Shown here in pieces: positions 3,973-30,403 of a DNA stretch of 34,815 bases. This DNA is from Myxococcaceae bacterium (GTDB taxonomy: Bacteria; Myxococcota; Myxococcia; Myxococcales; Myxococcaceae): contig JALHOS010000028.1 in the NCBI GenBank assembly GCA_022842905.1, forward strand, positions 1-34,815, given 5' to 3'. The notes under the pieces are model-generated. The model was not told where the DNA came from. It ran no database searches and saw nothing but the letters and a program-made list of their open reading frames with translations. Position numbers and translations under genes: made by a program. The stretch's first letter is position 1; each line of letters opens with the position of its first letter.

Positions 3973-6900
3973 TCAGGGCGTGACCGTCACCGTCACTTGG
4001 GCGGTGACGCCATTGGGCGCCGTGGCCCGGACGGTGGTCGTCCCGTCAGCCAGGCCGGTGACCGTCCCTTCGCTGCCCAGCGCGTTGGACACCTGCGCCA
4101 CCAAAGGGGTGGTCGAGCTCCACGTCACCTCGCTGGTGAGCGCGCGAGCCGTGCCGTCGGAGAAGTCTCCGGTGGCGACGAGCGGCGCGCTCTGGCCCAC
4201 CTGCACCGTCAGCGTCGCGGGAGAGATGCGGAGCGCGACGAGCGACGCCGGCGTGACGGTGTGGGGCGTCGACTCGCTGACGGCACCGAGCGACGCGGTG
4301 ACGGTGAGCGCGCCGGGGGCCAGCGTGCTGAGCAGCCCGCGGACCGGCGACGCGTTGCTGATGACGGCCTTCGTCACGTCCGACGTGCTCCACGTCACCA
4401 GGTCCGTCACCAGCTGCGTCGAGCCGTCCGTGTAGACGCCGATGGCGATGAACTGGCGCGTGAAGCCGACGGCAGTGGAGCCCGAGGAAGGCGTCAGCAG
4501 CAGCGACTGCAGGCTGGACTGATTGACGGTGAGCGTCCGGCTCACGGTGAAGGTGAGGTACGTGGCGGTGACCGTCGTCGTCCCCAGGCTCAGCGCCGTG
4601 AGCAGCCCCTGCGTCCCGTCGGCGTTCGACACCACCGCGACGCTCGGGGTCGACGACTGCCAGAGCGTGTCCTGCGTCAGCGTCCGCGTGGTCGCGTCGG
4701 TGAACGTGCCGACGAGCTGGAGCTGCCGGACCGAGGCGACGGGCACGGTGGTCAGCGCAGGGGTCATCGCCACGCTGACGAGGCGCGCGGCCGTCACCTC
4801 GACGGTCGCCGTGCTGCTGTGGCCGTCGAAGGTGGCCGTCACGGTCGCCGTGCCCACGTTCAGCGCCTGCGCTTCACCGGCGCCGCTCCCCGTGGCGACG
4901 ACGCCGACGAGGCTGGGGGCCGCCGAGCTCCACACCGCCTGGCTCGTCACGTCTTGGTGAGAGTCGTCGGTGAAGACCGCCGTCGCCGTCAGCTGCACGC
5001 TCGTCCCGCGCGGGTTGCGCGAGGTCGGCGGCGTCACCTGGATCTCACGGACGAGCGCCGGGGTCACCGTCACGGTGGTGCTGCCGGTGATGCCGCCCAG
5101 CTGCATTCGGACCTGGGCGGAGCCGACGCTCCCGCCGGTGACGAGGCCGGCGCTCGTTCCGTTGCCCACGCTGGCGTGCGGGCCGACGACGCTCCAGAAG
5201 CCGTCCGCCGTCACGTCTCGGGTGCTGCCGTCGGAATAGGTGCCCGTCGCGGTGAGCTGTCGAGACAGCCCCGCGGCCAGGCTCGGGTTCGGCGGCGTCA
5301 GCGCGAGCTGCCGCAGCGCTGCGGGGACGATCTGCACCACGAGCGTGCCCTGCACGGCGCCGACGCTGCCGGTGACCGTCACTGGGCCGGCTTGCAGCGC
5401 TCGAACCAGGCCTTCTTCGCCTTGCGCGTTGGACACGGTGGCCGACGAAGGGCTCGACGACGACCAGGTGGTGACGTCCGTCATCGCGCGGCTGCTCCCG
5501 TCCGAGAAGATGCCCGTCGCGGTCAGCTGCTGCGTGAGCCCCACGGGGACTGCCGCCGCCGCCGGCCCCAGCTCGAGGCTGCGCAGCACCGCCGCCGTCA
5601 CCGTCACGCGAGCGGACGCCGACTGTCCGTCGAAGCTCACCTGCAGGTCAGCGCTGCCCAGCGCCGCGCCGCGCACCCGCCCTGCCGATACGACTTGGAC
5701 GGCGGCCGCGGAGCTCGTCCACTGCGCGCTGGCGGTGACGTCCTGGGTGCTGCCGTCCGAGTACAGGGCCACCACGCTCAAGCTCGCTTCCAGGCCCTGA
5801 GGGACGCTGACGGAGGCCGGCGTGATGGCGAGGCTGCTCACCGTCGCTGGCGTCACCGTCACCGGCACCGGCGCCGACAGCGCGCCCCAGCTCGCCGTCA
5901 CCGTCGCTTGGCCCAACGCGCGCCCCGTCACCTCGCCGGCGACGACGGTGGCCGTGCCCGCGGCGCTGGTGCTCCAGGTGACGGGCGCGGTGACGGTGGC
6001 CTGGCTCCCGTCGGACAGCCGCGCCGTGGCCACCAGGCTCCGGCTCAGCCCGACCGGCACGCGCAGCGACGTGGGGCTGACGGCGAGCGACTGAGGGACG
6101 GCGCTTGTCACGGTGACGGGCACCACCGTCGTCTGGCCCAGGAACGTCACGCGGGCGCTGGTGCTGCCCTGGGTGAGCGCTTCGAGCAGGCCCGGCTGCT
6201 GCGCCGAGAAGCGCGCGCGCTGCGGGTCGTCCACGGCCCAGCTGACCTGCTCCGTGAGCGGCTGGGTGCTCCCGTCCGAGAAGACGCCGGTCGCGGTCAG
6301 CGCTCGGGTCAGCCCCGCGGCGACGGACAGGGGCGCCGGCGTCACCTCGAGCTGGCTGAGCGTGGCGTCCGTCACCGTGACCGTCGTGCTGCCGGTGACG
6401 CCGTCCAAGCTCGCTTCGACCGTCACTGCGCCCGGCGCGATCGCCTGGACTTCACCTGCCGGGCTCACGCCCACCTGGGTCGCCGCCGTCGAGCGCCAGG
6501 TGACCTGCGTCGTCACGTCACGCACCGCGCCGTCGGTCCAGGTGCCGCTCGCGGTCAGCCGGCCGGCGGTGTGCTGGGCCAGGCGCAGGCCTGCGGGGCT
6601 CAGGGAAATGGTGGACAGCGCCGCCGCCGACACGCGCACCGTCACCTGGCTGGCGACGCCGCCGCAGTCCGCGCGGACGATCGTCGTGCCTTCGGCGACG
6701 CCGCGCAGCTGCCCCTGGGCGCCCGGGGCGTTGGAGACGGTGGCCACCTGCGGCTCGTCGCTCGACCAGCCGCAGCTCGCTGTGAGCGGCTGGCGGCTCG
6801 AGTCCGAGTACACGCCGGTCGCGCTCAGCGGCGTCGTCCCCCCGACCGGGACGGAAGGTGAAGCGGGGGACAGCTCGACGGACGACAGGCTCGCCGCCGT

Positions 6901-8826
6901 CACCGTGACGCTCGCGGTGCTCTGCTGGCCGCCGAAGCTCGCGGTCAGGCTCGCCACGCCTTCCTGCACGGCGGTGACGGTCCCTTCGGTGCCGCTGGCG
7001 TTGCTCACCGTGGCGACCGATTCGGCCGAGCTGCTCCAGGTGGCCTGCGCCGTCAGGTCGCGGGTGCTCCCGTCCGAGAAGGTCCCCGTCACCGACAGCT
7101 GGCGTTGGGTGCCGCGGGCCAAGGAAGCCGTCGCGGGGGTCACCGAGAGCTGCCGCAGCGCGGCCGGGGACACCGTCACCGTCGTGCTGGCCGAGCCCCC
7201 GGCGTGGTGGGCGGTGACTCCGGCGGTGCCGGGGGCGAAGGCGGTGACGAGGCCCTTGGAGAGCCCCGTGTCGCCCACCGAAGCAATGCTGGGCGCCGCG
7301 CTGCTCCAGGTCGCCGCGTCGGTCACGTCGCGCAGCGAGCCGTCGCTGTACTGCGCCTGGACGCGCAGCTGCTGCGTCGTGCCGGCCGGCAACGTCGGCG
7401 CCGCGGGGTCGAGCACGAGGCGGCGCAGCTCGGCCGCGGACACCTGAATCGTCACCGTGCCGGCGATCTGCCCGACCGTCAGGCTCACCGTGGCCGAGCC
7501 GAGCGCGAGGGCCACGACGAGGCCGCGCTGGCCAGCGGCGTTCGAGACGGACAACACCGTCGGCGCGCTGCTGGCCCACGTGCCCAGCTCGTCCACGGCC
7601 TGGTGCGTGCCGTCCGAGAAGGTGCCGGTCGCGACGATCGTCGCGCTGGCGCCGACGGGCAGCGACGTGGACGTGAAGGACAGCTCCACGCTGCGCAGCT
7701 CCGCGGCGCGAATGGTCACGGGCAGCTCCACGCTCTGGCCCTGCACGCTGGCGCGCACCGTGGCTTGGCCCACCGCGACGCCGCGCACGTGCACCCCCGA
7801 AGCGTCGCGCACCACCGTGGCCACCTGGGCGTTGCTCGTCGTCCACTGCGCGCTGTTGCCCACGTCGACGCGGGTGGCGTCGCTGTAATGGCCCAGGAGC
7901 GTCACGTCCGCCGGCACGCCGAGCGGCAGCTGCAAGCTCGTCGGGGCGACCTCCAGGCGCTGCAGCGTCGCCTCGGTCACCTGCACCGGCGTCCGCAGCC
8001 GCTTGCCGCCGAGGCTCGCGGTGACGTGCGTGCTGCCGGCCGCCCGACCGGACACGAGGCCGCGCTCGCCGGCGAGCGTCGAGACGAAGGCGATCGCCGC
8101 ATCGTCGCTGGTCCAGGTCGCCTGCTGGGTCACGTCGAGGCTCGTCCCGTCCGAGAACCGGCCGTTCGCCCGCAGCGGCACGCTGGTGCCCTTCGGCAAG
8201 ACGGGGTTGAACGGCGTGACGGTCAGCTCGGCGAGCTGCGCGGCGCTGACGGTCAGCTCGAGCCGCGCCGACACCCCGCCGAAGGTGGCGATGGCCGTGG
8301 CCGGGCCGGGCATGGTGCCCACGACGACGCCGCGCGCTTCACTCATGGTGGCCGTCGCGTTGGCGCCGTCCAGGGCCCAGGCCGCGGACTCGGTGACGTC
8401 GCTCGTCGTGCCGTCGCTCAACAGCGCGGTGGCGACCAGCTGGAGCTGCACGCCGACGGGGACGGTGGCTCCGCTGGGGCCCAGCTCCAGCGTGCGCACC
8501 ACCGCGTCGGTGACCGTCAACACGCGCGCCGCCTCGACGCCGCCCTTCCGGGCGCGCAGCTGCGTGGTGCCTTGGTGTTTGCCGGTCACACGCCCTTGCT
8601 CGTCCACCGACGCCACGAAGCCGTCGTCGACCGTCCAGGCGACGGCGTTGGTCAACGAGCTGGCCGACCCATCACTCATGAGGCCCGCGGCTTCGAATTG
8701 GAGCGTCAGCCCAACCGGCACCCGCGCCGCTTCCGGCGTGATGGTCAGCTGCGTCAACGTGGGACTGCTCGCCTTCAGACACCCCGCCAGCGCCAAGAGC
8801 GCCGCCACTGCCGTTCGCTTCCCCAT
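3973..8826 (-). CDS. Giant lipoprotein of 18 tandem BIg2-like Ig domains
   Basis: This 1617-residue protein begins with a short signal peptide and a lipobox (L-A-L-A-G-C, Cys 16), so it should be lipid-anchored, probably at the outer membrane. The whole remainder is 18 tandem repeats of about 86-91 residues. Each starts L-x-x-L-x-V-x-P, continues with ...G-x-x-x-x-L-x-A-x-G-x-[FY]-S-D-G-[ST]-x-x-x-V-T, then W-x-[ST], and closes T-V-T-V. This is the bacterial Ig-like group 2 pattern known from adhesins and invasins. There is no catalytic domain, C-terminal anchor or MYXO-CTERM motif. A rigid surface rod or adhesive stalk is the likely role (inference). Repeat 8 carries a Cys pair (S-C-G-W and A-D-C-G-G) that could form a disulfide. 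Confidence 0.9.
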   Translation of the reverse strand: MGKRTAVAALLALAGCLKASSPTLTQLTITPEAARVPVGLTLQFEAAGLMSDGSASSLTNAVAWTVDDGFVASVDEQGRVTGKHQGTTQLRARKGGVEAARVLTVTDAVVRTLELGPSGATVPVGVQLQLVATALLSDGTTSDVTESAAWALDGANATATMSEARGVVVGTMPGPATAIATFGGVSARLELTVSAAQLAELTVTPFNPVLPKGTSVPLRANGRFSDGTSLDVTQQATWTSDDAAIAFVSTLAGERGLVSGRAAGSTHVTASLGGKRLRTPVQVTEATLQRLEVAPTSLQLPLGVPADVTLLGHYSDATRVDVGNSAQWTTSNAQVATVVRDASGVHVRGVAVGQATVRASVQGQSVELPVTIRAAELRSVELSFTSTSLPVGASATIVATGTFSDGTHQAVDELGTWASSAPTVLSVSNAAGQRGLVVALALGSATVSLTVGQIAGTVTIQVSAAELRRLVLDPAAPTLPAGTTQQLRVQAQYSDGSLRDVTDAATWSSAAPSIASVGDTGLSKGLVTAFAPGTAGVTAHHAGGSASTTVTVSPAALRQLSVTPATASLARGTQRQLSVTGTFSDGSTRDLTAQATWSSSAESVATVSNASGTEGTVTAVQEGVASLTASFGGQQSTASVTVTAASLSSVELSPASPSVPVGGTTPLSATGVYSDSSRQPLTASCGWSSDEPQVATVSNAPGAQGQLRGVAEGTTIVRADCGGVASQVTVRVSAAALSTISLSPAGLRLAQHTAGRLTASGTWTDGAVRDVTTQVTWRSTAATQVGVSPAGEVQAIAPGAVTVEASLDGVTGSTTVTVTDATLSQLEVTPAPLSVAAGLTRALTATGVFSDGSTQPLTEQVSWAVDDPQRARFSAQQPGLLEALTQGSTSARVTFLGQTTVVPVTVTSAVPQSLAVSPTSLRVPVGLSRSLVATARLSDGSQATVTAPVTWSTSAAGTATVVAGEVTGRALGQATVTASWGALSAPVPVTVTPATVSSLAITPASVSVPQGLEASLSVVALYSDGSTQDVTASAQWTSSAAAVQVVSAGRVRGAALGSADLQVSFDGQSASARVTVTAAVLRSLELGPAAAAVPVGLTQQLTATGIFSDGSSRAMTDVTTWSSSSPSSATVSNAQGEEGLVRALQAGPVTVTGSVGAVQGTLVVQIVPAALRQLALTPPNPSLAAGLSRQLTATGTYSDGSTRDVTADGFWSVVGPHASVGNGTSAGLVTGGSVGSAQVRMQLGGITGSTTVTVTPALVREIQVTPPTSRNPRGTSVQLTATAVFTDDSHQDVTSQAVWSSAAPSLVGVVATGSGAGEAQALNVGTATVTATFDGHSSTATVEVTAARLVSVAMTPALTTVPVASVRQLQLVGTFTDATTRTLTQDTLWQSSTPSVAVVSNADGTQGLLTALSLGTTTVTATYLTFTVSRTLTVNQSSLQSLLLTPSSGSTAVGFTRQFIAIGVYTDGSTQLVTDLVTWSTSDVTKAVISNASPVRGLLSTLAPGALTVTASLGAVSESTPHTVTPASLVALRISPATLTVQVGQSAPLVATGDFSDGTARALTSEVTWSSTTPLVAQVSNALGSEGTVTGLADGTTTVRATAPNGVTAQVTVTVTP
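3976..8757 (-). repeat. 18 tandem ~265-bp coding repeats (BIg2-like modules)
   Basis: The coding sequence of the lipoprotein consists of 18 consecutive modules of roughly 258-273 bp. They are diverged from one another at the DNA level, but each keeps codons for S-D-G-S/T near its middle and T-V-T-V near its end. The divergence suggests old duplication rather than recent slippage. Confidence 0.85.
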
Positions 8827-9028
8827 GGTGGCCGCAGCTCTTCAAGTCCGGCGCCAACGGGGATCGGGCCTAGGAATCGGTTGATGAACGCGCACCAGGC
8901 TGGGTCCAAGCGCCCAGCGAGCGCACGCCTGGGACCGCCGGGCCCCTGAGTCCCAAGCGCCCGTGGGTAGACGTGGCCCCAGCCCTGGGCCAAGAAGCGC
9001 GCTCTCTCTTCAACGAAAGGGACTCACC

Positions 9029-24078: not shown

Positions 24079-24239
24079 GGCGTGCACTCGGTCCCATCGT
24101 TCGTCGGGTCGCCGTCGGGCGGCTCGCTGTCGGTGGAGTCGGCCCCGAGTGTCCTCCAGGGCTGAGGCGGACGTCTACCAAGCCGCCCGCCAATCACCGA
24201 CTTGCCGCACGAACACCCCCGCTGCCCAGCCCACTTCAC
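24075..24239 (-). CDS. Tiny ORF of 54 residues overlapping the groEL stop
   Basis: GTG 24239 overlaps the TGA of the GroEL paralogue in a GTGA (24236-24239). The 54-residue frame has a C-S-C pair near the start (C9, C11), a basic Arg/Pro middle and an acidic end with D-S-T-D-S-E, P-D-G-D and E-C-T-P. About 81 percent of third positions are G/C. Its own stop makes another GTGA with the next tiny ORF. The function is unknown. The double overlap is the main evidence that it is translated. Confidence 0.5.
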
Positions 24240-25816
24240 GCGGCCGGCCGCTCCGCGACGACGGCCTCCGTCGTCAACATGAGCGAGGCCACGGACGCGG
24301 CGTTCTGCAAGGCGACGCGCACGACCTTGGTGGCGTCGATGACGCCCGCCGCCAGCAGGTCTTCGTACACCTGGGTCGCCACGTTGAACCCGAAGGCCCC
24401 GGTCCCTGCGCGGACCCGCGCGACGACGACCGAGCCTTCCTGGCCGCCGTTCTGCGCCATCTGGCGGAGGGGCTCCTCCAGCGCCCGCCGGACGAGCTCG
24501 ACGCCGTACTGCTGATCACCCGGCAGCGACAGCCGGTCGAGCGCCGGGAGCGCCCGCAGCAGCGCTACCCCGCCGCCGGGGACGACGCCTTCTTCCACCG
24601 CGGCCCGCGTCGCGTGCAGCGCGTCTTCGACGCGGGCCCGCTTCTCCTCGAGCTCGGTCTGGGTGGCCGCGCCGAGCTTGAGCACCGCGACGCCCCCGAC
24701 GAGCTTCGCGAGCCGCTCCTCGAGCTTCTCGCGGTCATAGTCCTGCGTGGCCTCGAGGAGGTGGGCGCGCAGCTGCTCGACCCGCACCTGGACGGCGCGC
24801 TTCTGGCCCAGCCCGTCGATCAACGTCGTCGTGTCCTTGGTGACGACGACCTTCCGCACCCGGCCCAGCTCCTTGAGGCCCACCCGCTCGAGCGTGAGCC
24901 CCAGCTGCGCCGTCACGGCCTGCCCGCCCGTCATGATCGCCAGGTCCTCGAGCAGATCCTTGCGCTGCGCCCCGAAGCCCGGGCCCTTCACCGCGCACGC
25001 GCTCAGCGTGCCCTTGAGCTTGTTGACGACCAGCGTGGCCAGCGCCTCGCCGTCCACGTCCTCGGCCACGACGAGGAGCGGCGCGCCCACCTTGGCCACG
25101 GCCTCCAGCAATGGCAGGCAGTCCGCGAAGGTCGAGATGCGCCGGTCGCAGATCAACACGAAGGCGTCTTCCAGCACCGCTTCCATGCGCAGCGGATCGG
25201 TGACGAAGTAGGGCGACAGGTAGCCGCGCTCGAACTGCAGCCCCTCGGCGACCTCGAGCGAGCTCTCCATCGCCTGCGACTCTTCGATGGTGATGACGCC
25301 CTCTTTGCCCACCCGCTCCATGGCCTCCGAGATCAGCGCGCCGATCGTCTCGTCGCCGTTCGCGCTGATGGTGCCGACCTGGGCGATCTCCTTGCGGTTG
25401 GCGGCGGGCGTCGAAGCGCGCACCAGCTCCCGGACGACGACCTCCACCGCCGCGTCGATGCCCCGCTTGAGCTCCATGGGGCTCGCGCCGGCGGCGACCA
25501 GCTTGACGCCGTGCGCGTACAGCGCCTGCGCGAGCACCGTCGCGGTGGTCGTCCCGTCGCCCGCGACCTGCGCCGTCTTGGCCGCGACCTCCTTCACCAT
25601 CTGCGCGCCCAGGTTGGCGAAGTGGTCGTCGAGCTCGATCACCTTGGCCACCGTGACTCCGTCCTTGGTGATCGTCGGGCTGCCTCGGCCTCGCTCCAAC
25701 GCCACGTTCCGGCCCCGGGGCCCCAGCGTCACCTTCACGGCGTTCGCGAGCGTGTCCAAGCCGCGGGCGATCCGCTGCCGCGCGTCGCTGCCGAAGACGA
25801 TGTGTTTGGAGACCAT
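24236..25816 (-). CDS. groEL: GroEL-family chaperonin paralogue without GGM tail
   Basis: This is a 526-residue 60-kDa chaperonin. The N-terminus [13 protein letters not shown] aligns with the usual GroEL start, so ATG 25816 is preferred over GTG 25828. The ATPase signatures are present: [15 protein letters not shown] and R-V-E-D-A-L-H-A-T. So are the apical substrate-binding residues ([15 protein letters not shown]). The protein ends A-E-R-P-A-A with no Gly-Gly-Met tail, and the usual G-E-E-P near 460 is G-Q-E-G. No groES or CIRCE element is nearby. It is therefore probably an accessory chaperonin that borrows GroES from elsewhere. It follows the SPFH gene by about 70 bases. Confidence 0.93.
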
Positions 25817-25886
25817 GGGGTCGCTCACGAGTTCGACGACGGGGTGGAGGCAGGTGGGGCCCGTGCTGGGGACCTGAGGCGTGGCG

Positions 25887-26942
25887 CTACGGTGACCGCG
25901 GCGTCGACAGCGCCGCCAGGCGCTGGGCGTGGTGCTCTTCCAAGGCGCTCGGGCTCGCGCCGGCCTGGACCCGCGGCGCGGGCGCTGGCGTCGGCCTGGG
26001 GGGCACGCTGACGCGCCCGTCCGAACCCTTGACCGTCTGATCGGCCTCGATCATCGCGCTGCGCATCTGCTCGGACAGGCTGGCCAAGTGCCCCGGGGAG
26101 TGGGGAATGAGGATCGCGTTGGTGCGAGACGACGCGCCGATCTCCTTGAGCATGTCGAAGTACTGCGTCATCAGGACGAGGTTCATGACGTCCTTGGCGG
26201 TGGTGCCCGCGACGGACTTGCGAAACTCGTCCACCGAGTCGCGCAGGCCGGCGATGATCGCGCGGCGCTGGTCGGCGATGCCGCGGCCCTGCAGCGCCTT
26301 GCTCTGCGCGTCGCCCTCGGCGGACTTCACCTTGAGGATCCGCTCCGCCTCGCCCCGCTCGGTCGCCGCGACCCGCAGCCGCTGCGCGACGTTGATCTCG
26401 TTCATCGACTCCTTCACGTGCGCGTCGGGCTCGAGGTCCGTCACCAGCGCCTTCAAGATCCCGTAGCCGAAGCCGTCCATCACCTGCGCCAGCTCGCTCT
26501 TCACGATGTCGGCGATCTCGTCCTTCTTCTCGAAGACGTCGTCGAGCTTGATCTTCGGCACCCGCGCGCGCACGACGTCGAACACGAAGGACGTGATCTG
26601 TCGGGTGGCGTCTTCGAGCTTGTAGAAGGCGTCGTACACCTTCGTCGGCAGCACGTAGTACTGCACCGCCACGACGAGCTGCACGAACACGTTGTCCTCG
26701 GTCTTCGTCTCGATTCGCACGTCGAGCTGTTGGACCCGCAGGTTGATGCGCCCGACGATGCGGTCCACGAACGGGATCCGCAGGTGCAGCCCCGGCCCCG
26801 CTTCCTTCAGGAACTTCCCGAAGCGCTGGACGATGACCGCGGTCCGTTGATCGACCGTGAACACCGCCGCGCCGAACAGCGCCGCCAGACCGAGCGCGAG
26901 GCCCGCGGCGAAGGTGAGCAGAACCAGGGCGTCGTTTGGCAT
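25887..26942 (-). CDS. SPFH/band-7 membrane protein (HIR-like)
   Basis: This 351-residue protein has one N-terminal membrane segment (about 5-28) and then a band-7 domain (about 29-210) with [25 protein letters not shown] and V-Q-Q-L-D-V. It continues with a charged helical stretch rich in Glu/Ala/Arg (about 195-245) and a Pro-rich C-terminal tail (about 305-350). Such proteins make large ring or raft scaffolds in membranes, often with proteases or chaperones. GAGGAGCTCC precedes ATG 26942. The chaperonin gene follows closely on the same strand, suggesting a shared operon. Confidence 0.9.
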
Positions 26943-27088: not shown

Positions 27089-28096
27089 TCAGTTCGATTG
27101 AGTTCGCGGAGGCGCCGCCGCGCGCTCGCGCCTCGTCAGCGCGGCCAGCAGCACGTCTCGATCCGTCGTCTCCACCGGCAGGCCGAGCGCGTCCATCACC
27201 CGCCGACACACCCGCGCGGCCTCGACCGTCAGCACGTGCTTGAGCTCCTCCGCAGTCGCGACGAAGCGCACGAAGCGCAGCACCGCGTGCACCCGCAGCT
27301 TCACGTCCAGCGTGTGCCGCCCGAAGCGCTCCAGCTCGCGCCAGACGGCGGCCTCGGCGTCCGACGCCCTCGACCTGGCACGCCGGTGCTCGGCCAGGCG
27401 TTGGAGCCTCGCCGCCCTGGGGCTGCCCGTCGCGGTCAGCTGCCCCAGGTGCGCGAGGAACGTCGCCGGCTCGTGAAACGGGGTGTCCTCGACCAAGAAG
27501 CGGCTGTGGTGCGCTGCCCGTTCGATGCCGGTTTGAAGCGCGCCGGCGCGCTGCGCCTGGAGCCGTTCGGCGGCGTACAGCGAGCGGAGCTCGAACTTGA
27601 GGAAGTGGGGCAGACACCGCGGCTGCCACAGCCGCGGCAGGACTGGCCGGATGCGACTGACGGGCAGGAACTGGCCGAAGAACACCTCCAGCCCTTCGTC
27701 GCTGAGCGCTTCCTTGAAGACCCCGACGGACAGGGAGCGGGTCGTCGCCCGCAGCAGCGCGTCCACCGTCGCGCGCGTCGGCCTGCGCCGCGCTCGGCCC
27801 AGCGCCCGCAGCAGGGTCCGTCCTTCGTCCGCGAACCGCCGCTCGACGTCTCGCGCCCAGCCCGGCGTGTGCACCAGCTCGTCGAAGACGCGATCGAGCA
27901 GCGCCTCTCGCCGTCCGTGCTCCACCCACAGCACGTTCTGGAAGCGGTACTCCCCCTGCCGCGCCGACGCGCCGAACGCCGCGAAGGGCTCGAGCGCGTG
28001 GCTCTCGCAGTAGATCCACCGCAGCAGCGGGGAGCGCGTGTGGAGCAGCGACTCGTACGCGAAGACGTCGAAGTCGCCGGAGCGCAGCGCCTCCAT
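27089..28096 (-). CDS. Helical protein of unknown function, possible detached domain of a PEP-synthase-like enzyme
   Basis: This 335-residue, Arg- and Leu-rich, mostly helical protein has no signal peptide or membrane segment. I do not recognise a catalytic motif. The C-terminal part, with R-F-V-R-F-V-A-T-A-E-E-L-K-H and A-A-R-V-C-R-R-V-M-D-A-L-G, resembles the helical region found at the substrate side of PEP-synthase and rifampin-phosphotransferase-like proteins (inference from pattern only). Its ATG follows the ATP-grasp gene stop after one base, and that upstream enzyme lacks this domain. This is the last gene of a four-gene operon. Confidence 0.6.
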   Translation of the reverse strand: MEALRSGDFDVFAYESLLHTRSPLLRWIYCESHALEPFAAFGASARQGEYRFQNVLWVEHGRREALLDRVFDELVHTPGWARDVERRFADEGRTLLRALGRARRRPTRATVDALLRATTRSLSVGVFKEALSDEGLEVFFGQFLPVSRIRPVLPRLWQPRCLPHFLKFELRSLYAAERLQAQRAGALQTGIERAAHHSRFLVEDTPFHEPATFLAHLGQLTATGSPRAARLQRLAEHRRARSRASDAEAAVWRELERFGRHTLDVKLRVHAVLRFVRFVATAEELKHVLTVEAARVCRRVMDALGLPVETTDRDVLLAALTRRERAAAPPRTQSN

Positions 28097-28097
28097 G

Positions 28098-29555
28098 TCA
28101 GGCCCGCCCTTCGAAGAAGGCGCGCCAGGTCCGTTCAGCGGTCGAGTCCGTCGCCGCGCAGTCCCACGTCACGCGGCGGCGCCCGACCAGTCGGCGGGCG
28201 AGGGCGAGCTGGTCGGGCCCTGGCGTCCAGTCGCCCAGCGCGTGGGCGACCTCGGCGATGACGTGCGAGGCCGTCAGCGAGCGGCGCGGGCGCGCGGGTG
28301 GGACGCGGACCTTCGCGACCTTGGCGTGCACCACCCGCGCGTCGATCGCGTCGACGGTGACCACCGCGCCTTCGACGAACGGGCCGTCGGTGGCCTCGTC
28401 GACGCCCACCAGACACGGCAGGCCCAGCTCCCGCGCGACGATGGCGGTGTGCGTGAGCGCAGAGCCTTCGACCGAGAGAATGCCCGCGACCTTCCTGAAC
28501 ATGGGGAGGAACTCGGGATCGGTGGCCGCGACGAGCGCGATGTCGCCGTGCCGTACCTGCGCCAGGTCGTCGACGGTCCAGACGCGGCGCAGCGGGCCAG
28601 ACGCACGCCCCGGCGACGCGATCTGTGGGCCTCCGTGGGCTGCCGTGTCGGGCAGACGCGTCGGCGCCGTGGTGATCGCGCGCGCCTGCAGGACGAACAG
28701 CTCGTCGCCCACGAAGCTGAACTCGAGATCGATCGGAAAGCCGAAGGCCGCCTCCAGCGCGACCCCGAGCTGGTGAACGCGGGTGAGCTGGGCGTCGGAC
28801 AGCGCCGGCAACGCCTCGAGGCCGCGCGGGACCCGCGCCGTGGACAGCTTGGGGCCGTAGGGCAGGTGGAGCCACGACGGGCCCAGCGGCGTACGCAGCG
28901 GCTGCCCACACGGCCCCTCCGCCCGCCACACCATTTCGAACTTGTAGCCGAGGCGCCGCTCGGCGGTGCCTCCCGTCGGCTCCAGGACGAAGGTGTCGGT
29001 CGCGACGGAGCCGTCGACCACCCCATGGCACGAGCCGTAGGTGGCGACGATCATCGCGCGGCCAGGGTGGGTCGGGCTCGCGCTGAACAGCACGCCGGAG
29101 CGCTCGGCGCAGAGCGCAGGCTGGATCAACAAGCCGAGCTGGCGTCGTCCTCGGGCCAGCGCTCGAGCGCGGGACTCTCCACGGCGGCGCAGCAACGTCG
29201 GCCAGGCCTTCAAGCTCTCGGCGCGTACGGCGGCGATCGTGCGGGCCAGGGCCGCGGGGCTCGCGTCACACAGCTGCGTCTCGAAGTGCCCCGCCAGCGA
29301 CGCCGTGCGGCCGTCTTCGATCGTGGCCGTGGACCGCACGATCAGCTGCTCGTGGCCACGCAGCGCCCTGACGATTGCCCGCGCCGCCGTCGCCGCTGCT
29401 CCCCGCGGGCCGAGCCAGACTGCGGGCAGGACCGAACACCCAGGCTGCTTGGCCAGCAGCGCCGCGACGCGCGCCAGGTTCTTCGCCTTGCCGCCGGCGC
29501 GACTGCCGAGTCGAGCGATCTCCGACCAGCCAGCCGCGGAGGGTGGCTGGCTCAT
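28098..29555 (-). CDS. PEP-synthase-like ATP-grasp plus phosphohistidine domain protein
   Basis: This 485-residue enzyme of the PPDK/PEP-synthase/rifampin-phosphotransferase superfamily has a PPDK-type ATP-grasp domain over about 14-300. Visible motifs are G-G-K-A-K-N-L at 21-27, V-R-S-T-A-T-I-E-D at 73-81, S-G-V-L-F-S at 153-158 and L-E-F-S-F-V ... L-F-V-L-Q-A-R-A-I-T ending near 295. The swivelling His domain spans about 325-420, with the catalytic His at H369 in L-T-H-T-A-I-V-A-R-E-L-G. It should move phosphate from ATP through phosphohistidine to a substrate. The usual third, substrate-binding domain is missing. ATG 29555 overlaps the Sua5-like stop in an ATGA. Confidence 0.85.
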   Translation of the reverse strand: MSQPPSAAGWSEIARLGSRAGGKAKNLARVAALLAKQPGCSVLPAVWLGPRGAAATAARAIVRALRGHEQLIVRSTATIEDGRTASLAGHFETQLCDASPAALARTIAAVRAESLKAWPTLLRRRGESRARALARGRRQLGLLIQPALCAERSGVLFSASPTHPGRAMIVATYGSCHGVVDGSVATDTFVLEPTGGTAERRLGYKFEMVWRAEGPCGQPLRTPLGPSWLHLPYGPKLSTARVPRGLEALPALSDAQLTRVHQLGVALEAAFGFPIDLEFSFVGDELFVLQARAITTAPTRLPDTAAHGGPQIASPGRASGPLRRVWTVDDLAQVRHGDIALVAATDPEFLPMFRKVAGILSVEGSALTHTAIVARELGLPCLVGVDEATDGPFVEGAVVTVDAIDARVVHAKVAKVRVPPARPRRSLTASHVIAEVAHALGDWTPGPDQLALARRLVGRRRVTWDCAATDSTAERTWRAFFEGRA

Positions 29556-30121
29556 GCGCGGCGCTCCAGCCTGGGCGTCCGTCCCTCGCACCACACCAAG
29601 GTGCTCGCGGGGCCCGCCAGCGGCCCTTCGTAGACGATGAAGTCCACGCCCTGGGCGATCGCCGGATCGAGAGACTCGAGATCGCGCATGGGCGGGTGCG
29701 TGGTGCGGTTGACCGACGTCGTCACGAGCGGCGCGCCGAGCGCCTCGGCGAGGTCGGTGATCCAGTGGTGCGGAAAGCGCAGCCCGACGAAGTCAGAGCC
29801 GAGGACGCGGCGCAGCGGCCCCGGCGCGGCGGGCCACAGCGTCGTGAAGCGGCCACGAAAGCGCGGCTCGATCGCCCGGAACTTCGCTCGCAACGACTCG
29901 TCCACGGCGTCCGCGGCCCAGCGCACCGACGGCGGAATGACGCTGGGTGGCCTCCGTCGGCGCTTGAGGCGCTGAATACGACGGACGACGGCCGGCACGC
30001 TCGCGTCGCCGGACAAGCCGTACAGCGTGTCCGTCGGGAGGATGCCGACCTGTCGCAGCGTGAGACGCCGGATCAGCTCCGACCGCGCGTGCGGCAGGTC
30101 GGAGCCAGCGTAGACATCCAT
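29552..30121 (-). CDS. Sua5/YrdC/TsaC-family protein, divergent
   Basis: This 189-residue YrdC domain has G-I-L-P-T-D-T-L-Y-G-L at 26-36, the family signature. It also has V-G-L-R-F-P-H-H, T-T-S-V-N-R (usually S-T-S-A-N) and P-A-S-T-L-V. The family makes L-threonylcarbamoyladenylate for tRNA t6A, but the K-x-R substrate site is replaced by an Arg-rich run (K-R-R-R-R-P-P) and W-P-G-P is R-G-R-F. It may be a paralogue with another role rather than the housekeeping TsaC. It starts nine bases after the basic-protein gene and overlaps the next gene by four. Confidence 0.82.
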   Translation of the reverse strand: MDVYAGSDLPHARSELIRRLTLRQVGILPTDTLYGLSGDASVPAVVRRIQRLKRRRRPPSVIPPSVRWAADAVDESLRAKFRAIEPRFRGRFTTLWPAAPGPLRRVLGSDFVGLRFPHHWITDLAEALGAPLVTTSVNRTTHPPMRDLESLDPAIAQGVDFIVYEGPLAGPASTLVWCEGRTPRLERRA

Positions 30122-30130
30122 CCAGCGGTG

Positions 30131-30403
30131 TTACTTGCCGCCAGCGCCGCGCACGGCCGGCTTCGGCTTGGTGGCCGGTCGGCTCACGGCGCCCTTGCCG
30201 CCGCCGCTGGGCTTGGCCGCGGGCTTGGCGGCCGGCTTCGTGCGCGGTCGCGAGACGCTGCCACCCTTGCCGCCGACCGTGGGCTTCACCGCGGGCTTCT
30301 TCGGCTTGGTGCCCGGCCGGGACACGCCGCCGCCCTTGCCCGACTTCGTCGTGCGCGGGGTCTGCTTGGGAATCGAAACAGGAGGACGACGAACGGCGGC
30401 CAT
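30131..30403 (-). CDS. Small Lys/Pro/Gly-rich basic protein with S-R-P-x-T-K-P repeats
   Basis: This is a 90-residue low-complexity, strongly basic protein. Three copies of (V/A)-S-R-P-x-T-K-P are separated by G-G-K-G and A-A-K-P-A-A-K-P stretches. It should be disordered and may bind nucleic acid or an acidic partner, like histone H1-type tails in bacteria. AAGGAG lies eight bases upstream of ATG 30403, so translation should be good. It heads the operon with the Sua5-like gene and is divergent from radA. Confidence 0.7.
   Translation of the reverse strand: MAAVRRPPVSIPKQTPRTTKSGKGGGVSRPGTKPKKPAVKPTVGGKGGSVSRPRTKPAAKPAAKPSGGGKGAVSRPATKPKPAVRGAGGK

Follow-up and report, generated by a model that had tools for sequence, protein, structure and literature searches.

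A conserved four-gene cassette of a Myxococcaceae bacterium that may join a GKG-repeat protein to a Sua5-like enzyme and a split dikinase

Introduction

What would bring together, in a single bacterial operon, a Lys-rich repeat protein, a Sua5-like enzyme and a phosphotransferase lacking its substrate domain? The question is raised by four genes, here called g1 to g4, found in a 34,815-nucleotide (nt) stretch of DNA (the window) which is contig C28 of the 7.85 Mb draft genome of a Myxococcaceae bacterium. All four lie on the minus strand. The first, g1 (30403-30131), encodes a repeat-tailed protein of 90 amino acids, the candidate substrate, and g2 (30121-29552, 189 amino acids) a Sua5/YrdC/TsaC-like acyl-adenylate-forming enzyme. 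The g3 product (29555-28098, 485 amino acids) combines an ATP-grasp (PPDK_N) domain and a His swivel domain without a substrate domain, and that of g4 (28096-27089, 335 amino acids) is helical, with a predicted fold resembling the domain that binds the substrate, rifampin, in rifampin phosphotransferase (RPH). The genes g1 and g2 are separated by 9 nt and g3 and g4 by 1 nt, and g2 and g3 share an ATGA overlap at 29555-29552; these coordinates agree with the four same-strand genes, gaps and overlap described in an earlier reading of the window made from its letters alone (the sequence-only reading).

The explanation favoured here, to which we give an even chance as a whole, is that the cassette consists of a substrate protein, g1, and the enzymes that modify it, g2 and g3/g4. 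It starts from what the sequences show: a conserved cassette, intact catalytic residues in g2 and g3, and repeat tails.

Results and Discussion

A g4 profile was used to scan about 85,000 species genomes by means of short patterns, and four further g4 loci were found, a number to be taken as a lower bound because the scan relies on such patterns. The loci belong to metagenome-assembled genomes (MAGs) of a member of the Myxococcaceae, the same family as the window (G018, locus L007), a deltaproteobacterium (G156, L018), an unclassified bacterium placed in the phylum of the window (G182, L017) and a member of the Armatimonadetes (G195, L019). The genes g2, g3 and g4 are contiguous and in identical order in all five g4-bearing genomes, which represent two phyla, and the proteins of the four relatives are 40-47% (g2), 33-39% (g3) and 38-43% (g4) identical to those of the window. 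Within the phylum of the window g4 is present in 4 of 195 genomes, and the same four, and no others, stand out with the g3 profile, at 643-818 bits against no more than 224 bits elsewhere; in the phylum of the Armatimonadetes MAG, g4 occurs in G195 only (1 of 149 genomes). No conserved flanking gene, transporter and metabolic genes included, was seen beside the five cassettes. The rare distribution and the lack of conserved neighbours thus indicate a rare, portable unit.

The sequence-only reading had made its proposal depend on the four genes being kept together, and this is largely the case: g2-g3-g4 are contiguous in every cassette, and a gene of the g1 type stands upstream in four of the five. 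The g2-g3-g4 arrangement is not due to chance, as it recurs, contiguous and with its order unchanged, in the four relatives. A fortuitous neighbourhood, or the decaying fragments of a phosphoenolpyruvate (PEP) synthase, could be suspected from a g3 without substrate domain; this is hardly credible for a locus whose catalytic residues and gene order are kept across two phyla, in five genomes altogether, with protein identities of about 33-47%. Weak g4 matches in G129 and G131 (E about 8e-4) were discarded, as they overlap the coding frame of a SNF2-type helicase, and L048, which with 224 bits is the top g3 match outside the family, looks like a normal PEP synthase of full length.

The g3 protein matched the pyruvate phosphate dikinase (PPDK) domain PPDK_N (PF01326, E 3e-24) and the PEP-utilizers mobile (swivel) domain (PF00391, E 7e-18), and its top PDB sequence match was a PEP synthase. 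Residues K23, R74, D276, E278, Q290, R292 and H369 are invariant in the five sequences, the codon of the catalytic His369 (CAC on the coding strand) being located at 28451-28449 on the minus strand. The earlier assignment of g3 as a PPDK-type ATP-grasp and swivel protein of 485 residues with His 369 is borne out by these domain matches and by the invariance of the His. The ATP-grasp and His domains stand in the same order in PEP synthase and PPDK, which differ in a C-terminal pyruvate/PEP TIM-barrel; in the domain search this barrel was matched in neither g3 nor g4, and no C-terminal substrate domain was matched in g3, where only a short extension follows the swivel. The structure prediction obtained for g3 was poor (predicted local distance difference test score, pLDDT, 66) and was not used.

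For g4, neither Pfam, NCBIfam and PADLOC (0 matches) nor a PDB sequence search gave a match. Its AlphaFold2 model (pLDDT 87, predicted template modelling score 0.82) had as top PDB fold matches the rifampin phosphotransferase entries 5FBT and 5FBU, with probabilities of 0.99 and 0.97, the other listed matches reaching at most 0.38. As an independent test, the g4 profile was compared with the helical substrate domains of 21 RPH-type proteins. The two aligned collinearly across 126 columns with an E-value of 0.0025, calculated as for one comparison, and the reversed-profile controls gave E-values of 0.15 or more. This comparison is meaningful only with a diverse set: hhalign against close RPH homologues alone was not significant (E 0.14). 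The most conserved g4 motif, the invariant A280-T-x-E283-E-L-K286-H287 (27259-27236, minus strand), aligns on Y-R666-E667-Y-P-K670 of RPH, with E283 and K286 matching Glu667 and Lys670 (RPH residue numbers were taken from PMC4844700 and positioned via the REYPK sequence). In RPH-Lm, R666 and E667 are essential to the second phosphotransfer, and K670 is part of the same network (PMC4844700). An unrelated fold of g4 would have spoken against the earlier suggestion that it supplies the missing substrate domain; the RPH-like fold obtained instead and the profile match on the catalytic motif favour it, and prediction thus supports g4 as the domain that g3 lacks. From the fold match and the motif alignment g3 and g4 therefore look like a split dikinase, which is probably what they are, divided unlike the known two-component dikinases.

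The cassette shares with RPH (PMC4844700) an ATP-grasp domain and a His swivel and, by prediction, a helical substrate domain, g4 having a similar predicted fold and a Glu and Lys that align with those of the motif. RPH is, however, a single chain in the order ATP-substrate-His, whereas here the ATP and His domains form one chain and the substrate domain has its own gene; its Arg666 is not kept in g4, and nothing points to rifampin as the cassette substrate. In HpeHI, with the homologues CreHI and PpsAB, the ATP-grasp domain is on one protein and the substrate and swivel domains are on the other (PMC12167813). These are, like g3/g4, RPH-type dikinases spread over two genes, but the cut differs, since g3 fuses ATP-grasp and swivel and leaves g4 as a free substrate domain; nor is a Sua5 partner or a repeat protein described for the HpeHI type, unlike the cassette. 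No earlier description of a fused ATP-grasp and swivel protein with a free substrate domain was found in open-access full text.

The g2 protein belongs to PF01300 (E 4e-22) and scored 66.5 bits against TIGR00057, far under the cut-off of 123.2. It resembles TsaC/Sua5 in the PF01300 fold and in the catalytic tetrad KxR/SxN (PMC10321239), which is intact in all five g2 proteins (K53, R55, S136 and N138 in the window). It differs from them in falling under the NCBIfam cut-offs, in being the fourth copy in its genome and in being tied to a kinase operon. Its earlier description as a divergent Sua5/YrdC paralogue is supported. The other three PF01300 copies of the genome all score above g2, which is therefore unlikely to be required for the synthesis of N6-threonylcarbamoyladenosine (t6A); one of them, L008, has intact KxR and SxN motifs, and another, L009, reads T-S-A-T, without the Asn. 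A role in tRNA or RNA modification, with g2 as a tRNA threonylcarbamoyl enzyme and g1 as a basic RNA-binding protein, would agree with the PF01300 membership and TIGR00057-like character of g2 and with the basic g1. It is nevertheless very improbable: the three stronger copies, of which at least L008 has the motifs intact, can cover t6A, g4 is like a small-substrate domain and not an RNA-binding fold, and the g1 proteins of L017 and L019 are Ser/Gly-rich and not strongly basic.

The g1 protein also gave 0 matches in Pfam, NCBIfam and PADLOC. It had been described as a basic, disordered and Lys-rich protein; basic it is, but the description was incomplete, as GKG[G/S/A] repeats are the feature that recurs across the cassettes. 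The window protein contains the repeats SGKGGGVSRP, GGKGGSVSRP and GGGKGAVSRP, and its tail ends in GAGGK-stop. On the minus strand, the first repeat (GKGG) is at 30340-30329, within a codon-pattern match at 30340-30261, and the codon-pattern scan placed the second (GKGG) at 30271-30260 and the third (GKGA) at 30196-30185. The gene directly upstream of g2 bears [S/G/T]GKG[G/S/A] repeats in four of the five cassettes, the window, L017 (five GKGG units), L018 (SSGKGGS and TGKGGS) and L019 (six GKGS units). These four proteins vary in length and in their N-terminal part, except that L017 and L018 are alike in the latter; the N-domain common to this pair (G182 and G156) is absent from the g1 of the window and of L019. 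In each of the four, the [SGT]GKG[GSA] count exceeded that of residue shuffles (p about 5e-5), and thus residue composition does not account for the repeats. When four complete genomes (about 28 Mb) were searched for pairs of GKG-type codon units with a spacing of 37-66 nt, 9 matches were obtained, 6 of them within cassette g1 genes (two being the window's own), and the reversed codon pattern gave 5 scattered matches. GKG matches in G000:C159, inside an RHS-like protein, and in G182:C5, where the frame overlaps other open reading frames, were set aside.

The N-domain of the L018 g1 (DGRIDKKDVELL...DGRGITKAE) has weak first-domain matches in unrelated large proteins (L125-L139, e.g., L127, L135 and L139) and is perhaps concerned with targeting.

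Antibiotic or tRNA modification, which the sequence-only reading had considered among the possible roles, is not supported as the likely one; the GKG tail of g1 points to an operon-encoded protein or peptide substrate. That g1 is the substrate of g2-g4 is rather likely. It might be modified by phosphorylation alone, on the Ser of GKGS by g3/g4, with g2 regulatory or acting on nucleotides: most repeats have Ser after GKG (GKGS, GKGGS), and hydroxyls are the targets of dikinases. We regard this as unlikely, because the catalytic tetrad of g2 is complete and the Lys is more constant than the Ser: GKGAV and GKGGGV repeats occur in the window, and 5 of the 6 GKG proteins end in G-K-stop.

If g1 is indeed the substrate of a modification machine, we infer the following order and nature of steps. 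The ribosomally made g1 would present a disordered tail of [S/G]GKG[G/S/A] units with the end ...GK. The ATP-grasp site of g3 would move phosphate from ATP onto His369, and its swivel domain would hand the phosphate to an acceptor bound by the free-standing g4. The g2 product would be threonylcarbamoyl-AMP or a related acyl-carbamate adenylate, from which the carbamoyl group would be passed to an amine, most simply the GKG lysine, as it is to the adenine N6 in t6A synthesis; carbamoylation of g1 lysines by g2 is put forward tentatively. The dikinase would then phosphorylate a hydroxyl, either that of the attached amino acid or that of a repeat Ser/Thr.

Several observations weigh against this model. 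All five cassettes come from draft genomes, mostly MAGs. The g4-RPH fold match, with modest E-values (0.024 and 0.092) and TM scores of 0.43-0.47, is therefore one of topology only, and RPH Arg666 has no conserved counterpart in g4. The g1 of L019 is without the terminal GK. No GKG-repeat gene was found beside the g2-g3-g4 of G018, whose sole adjacent candidate, the L006 gene downstream of g4, encodes a Lys-rich tail of another type. With five cassettes at hand, the conservation of the repeats could also mirror some other role of GKG tails.

Alternatively, g2-g3-g4 might make or modify a small molecule, such as a threonylcarbamoyl-type metabolite in phosphorylated form, g1 being a carrier, a storage or an unrelated structural protein. 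The characterised RPH-type and two-component dikinases reviewed all phosphorylate small molecules, and G018 has g2-g3-g4 with no adjoining GKG-repeat gene. This alternative is nevertheless doubtful, as GKG repeats stand upstream in four of five cassettes although the g1 sequences otherwise differ, and no conserved transporter or metabolic gene adjoins the cassette.

Two neighbours of the G018 cassette may be recorded. The L006 gene (791-1432, minus strand), about 50 nt past g4, encodes 213 amino acids with a Lys-rich tail ASSKKGAGGAGSASSKKKAAAG, a possible alternative substrate. At the place expected for g1, a gene for a PF01909 nucleotidyltransferase-domain protein (L007 10648-11622, plus strand) is divergent from the cassette.

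Repeat tails related to that of g1 were also found beside other adenylating enzymes. In G182:C16, the site of a further match of the codon-pattern scan, a small protein ends in SSGKGS...SSGKGS...GGKGVSRPRGK, and a NadE-like gene begins 3 nt downstream (pair at L151 1189-2610, plus strand); in G195 a NadE-like gene likewise begins 3 nt past the gene of a 63-amino-acid protein with four GKGS units (pair at L036 1670-540, minus strand). The two NadE-like proteins, from different phyla, are 43% identical, and each genome holds a second, longer NAD-synthase-family gene elsewhere. The NadE-like genes of G000, G018 and G156 have no adjoining GKG gene. Furthermore, G182 encodes two proteins with the L018-type N-domain and tails built of GGGE/GGE and ending in E, one beside a PaaK-like adenylate-forming enzyme (L140 6847-5036, minus strand) and the other beside two such enzymes (L141 around 5921-8896). 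In the simplest view, the charged residue of the G-K or GG-E unit would be the attachment site, and the adjoining enzyme would activate either the incoming group or the carboxylate.

Downstream of g4, on the same strand and after a gap of 146 nt, lie genes for a GroEL-type chaperonin and a Band 7/HflK-like protein (24236-25828, 25887-26942), which are not found beside the other cassettes. An anti-phage defence system was rejected, as the PADLOC models gave no match, and so was a phage or plasmid gene, with no match in either the phage or the plasmid collection.

Conclusions

Pathways of ribosomally synthesised and post-translationally modified peptides (RiPPs) consist of a ribosomal precursor and tailoring enzymes. 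The cassette resembles them in having a small repeat-bearing gene by ATP-using enzymes, with a core-like motif repeated, an adjacency seen in four of the five cassettes and not in G018; it differs from them in having no known RiPP tailoring family, transporter or protease. A candidate for a conserved leader that the enzymes could recognise is seen in G156 and G182 only, as the N-domain which their g1 proteins share. No published account of the g1-g4 combination, or of YrdC/Sua5 with a RiPP or precursor peptide, was found in open-access full text. It is conceivable, though we would not call it probable, that the cassette belongs to an undescribed group of tail-modification systems, in which adenylate-forming enzymes encoded in the operon, whether Sua5-like and paired with a split dikinase, NadE-like or PaaK-like, charge repeated GKG or GGE tails with unprecedented Lys- or Glu-linked groups. 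If the explanation favoured here is right, the dikinases would gain a new architecture in which the substrate domain is a protein of its own, threonylcarbamoyl-type chemistry would have been carried from tRNA to protein, and a GKG/GGE tail beside an adenylating enzyme would provide a searchable signature for new peptide modification systems.

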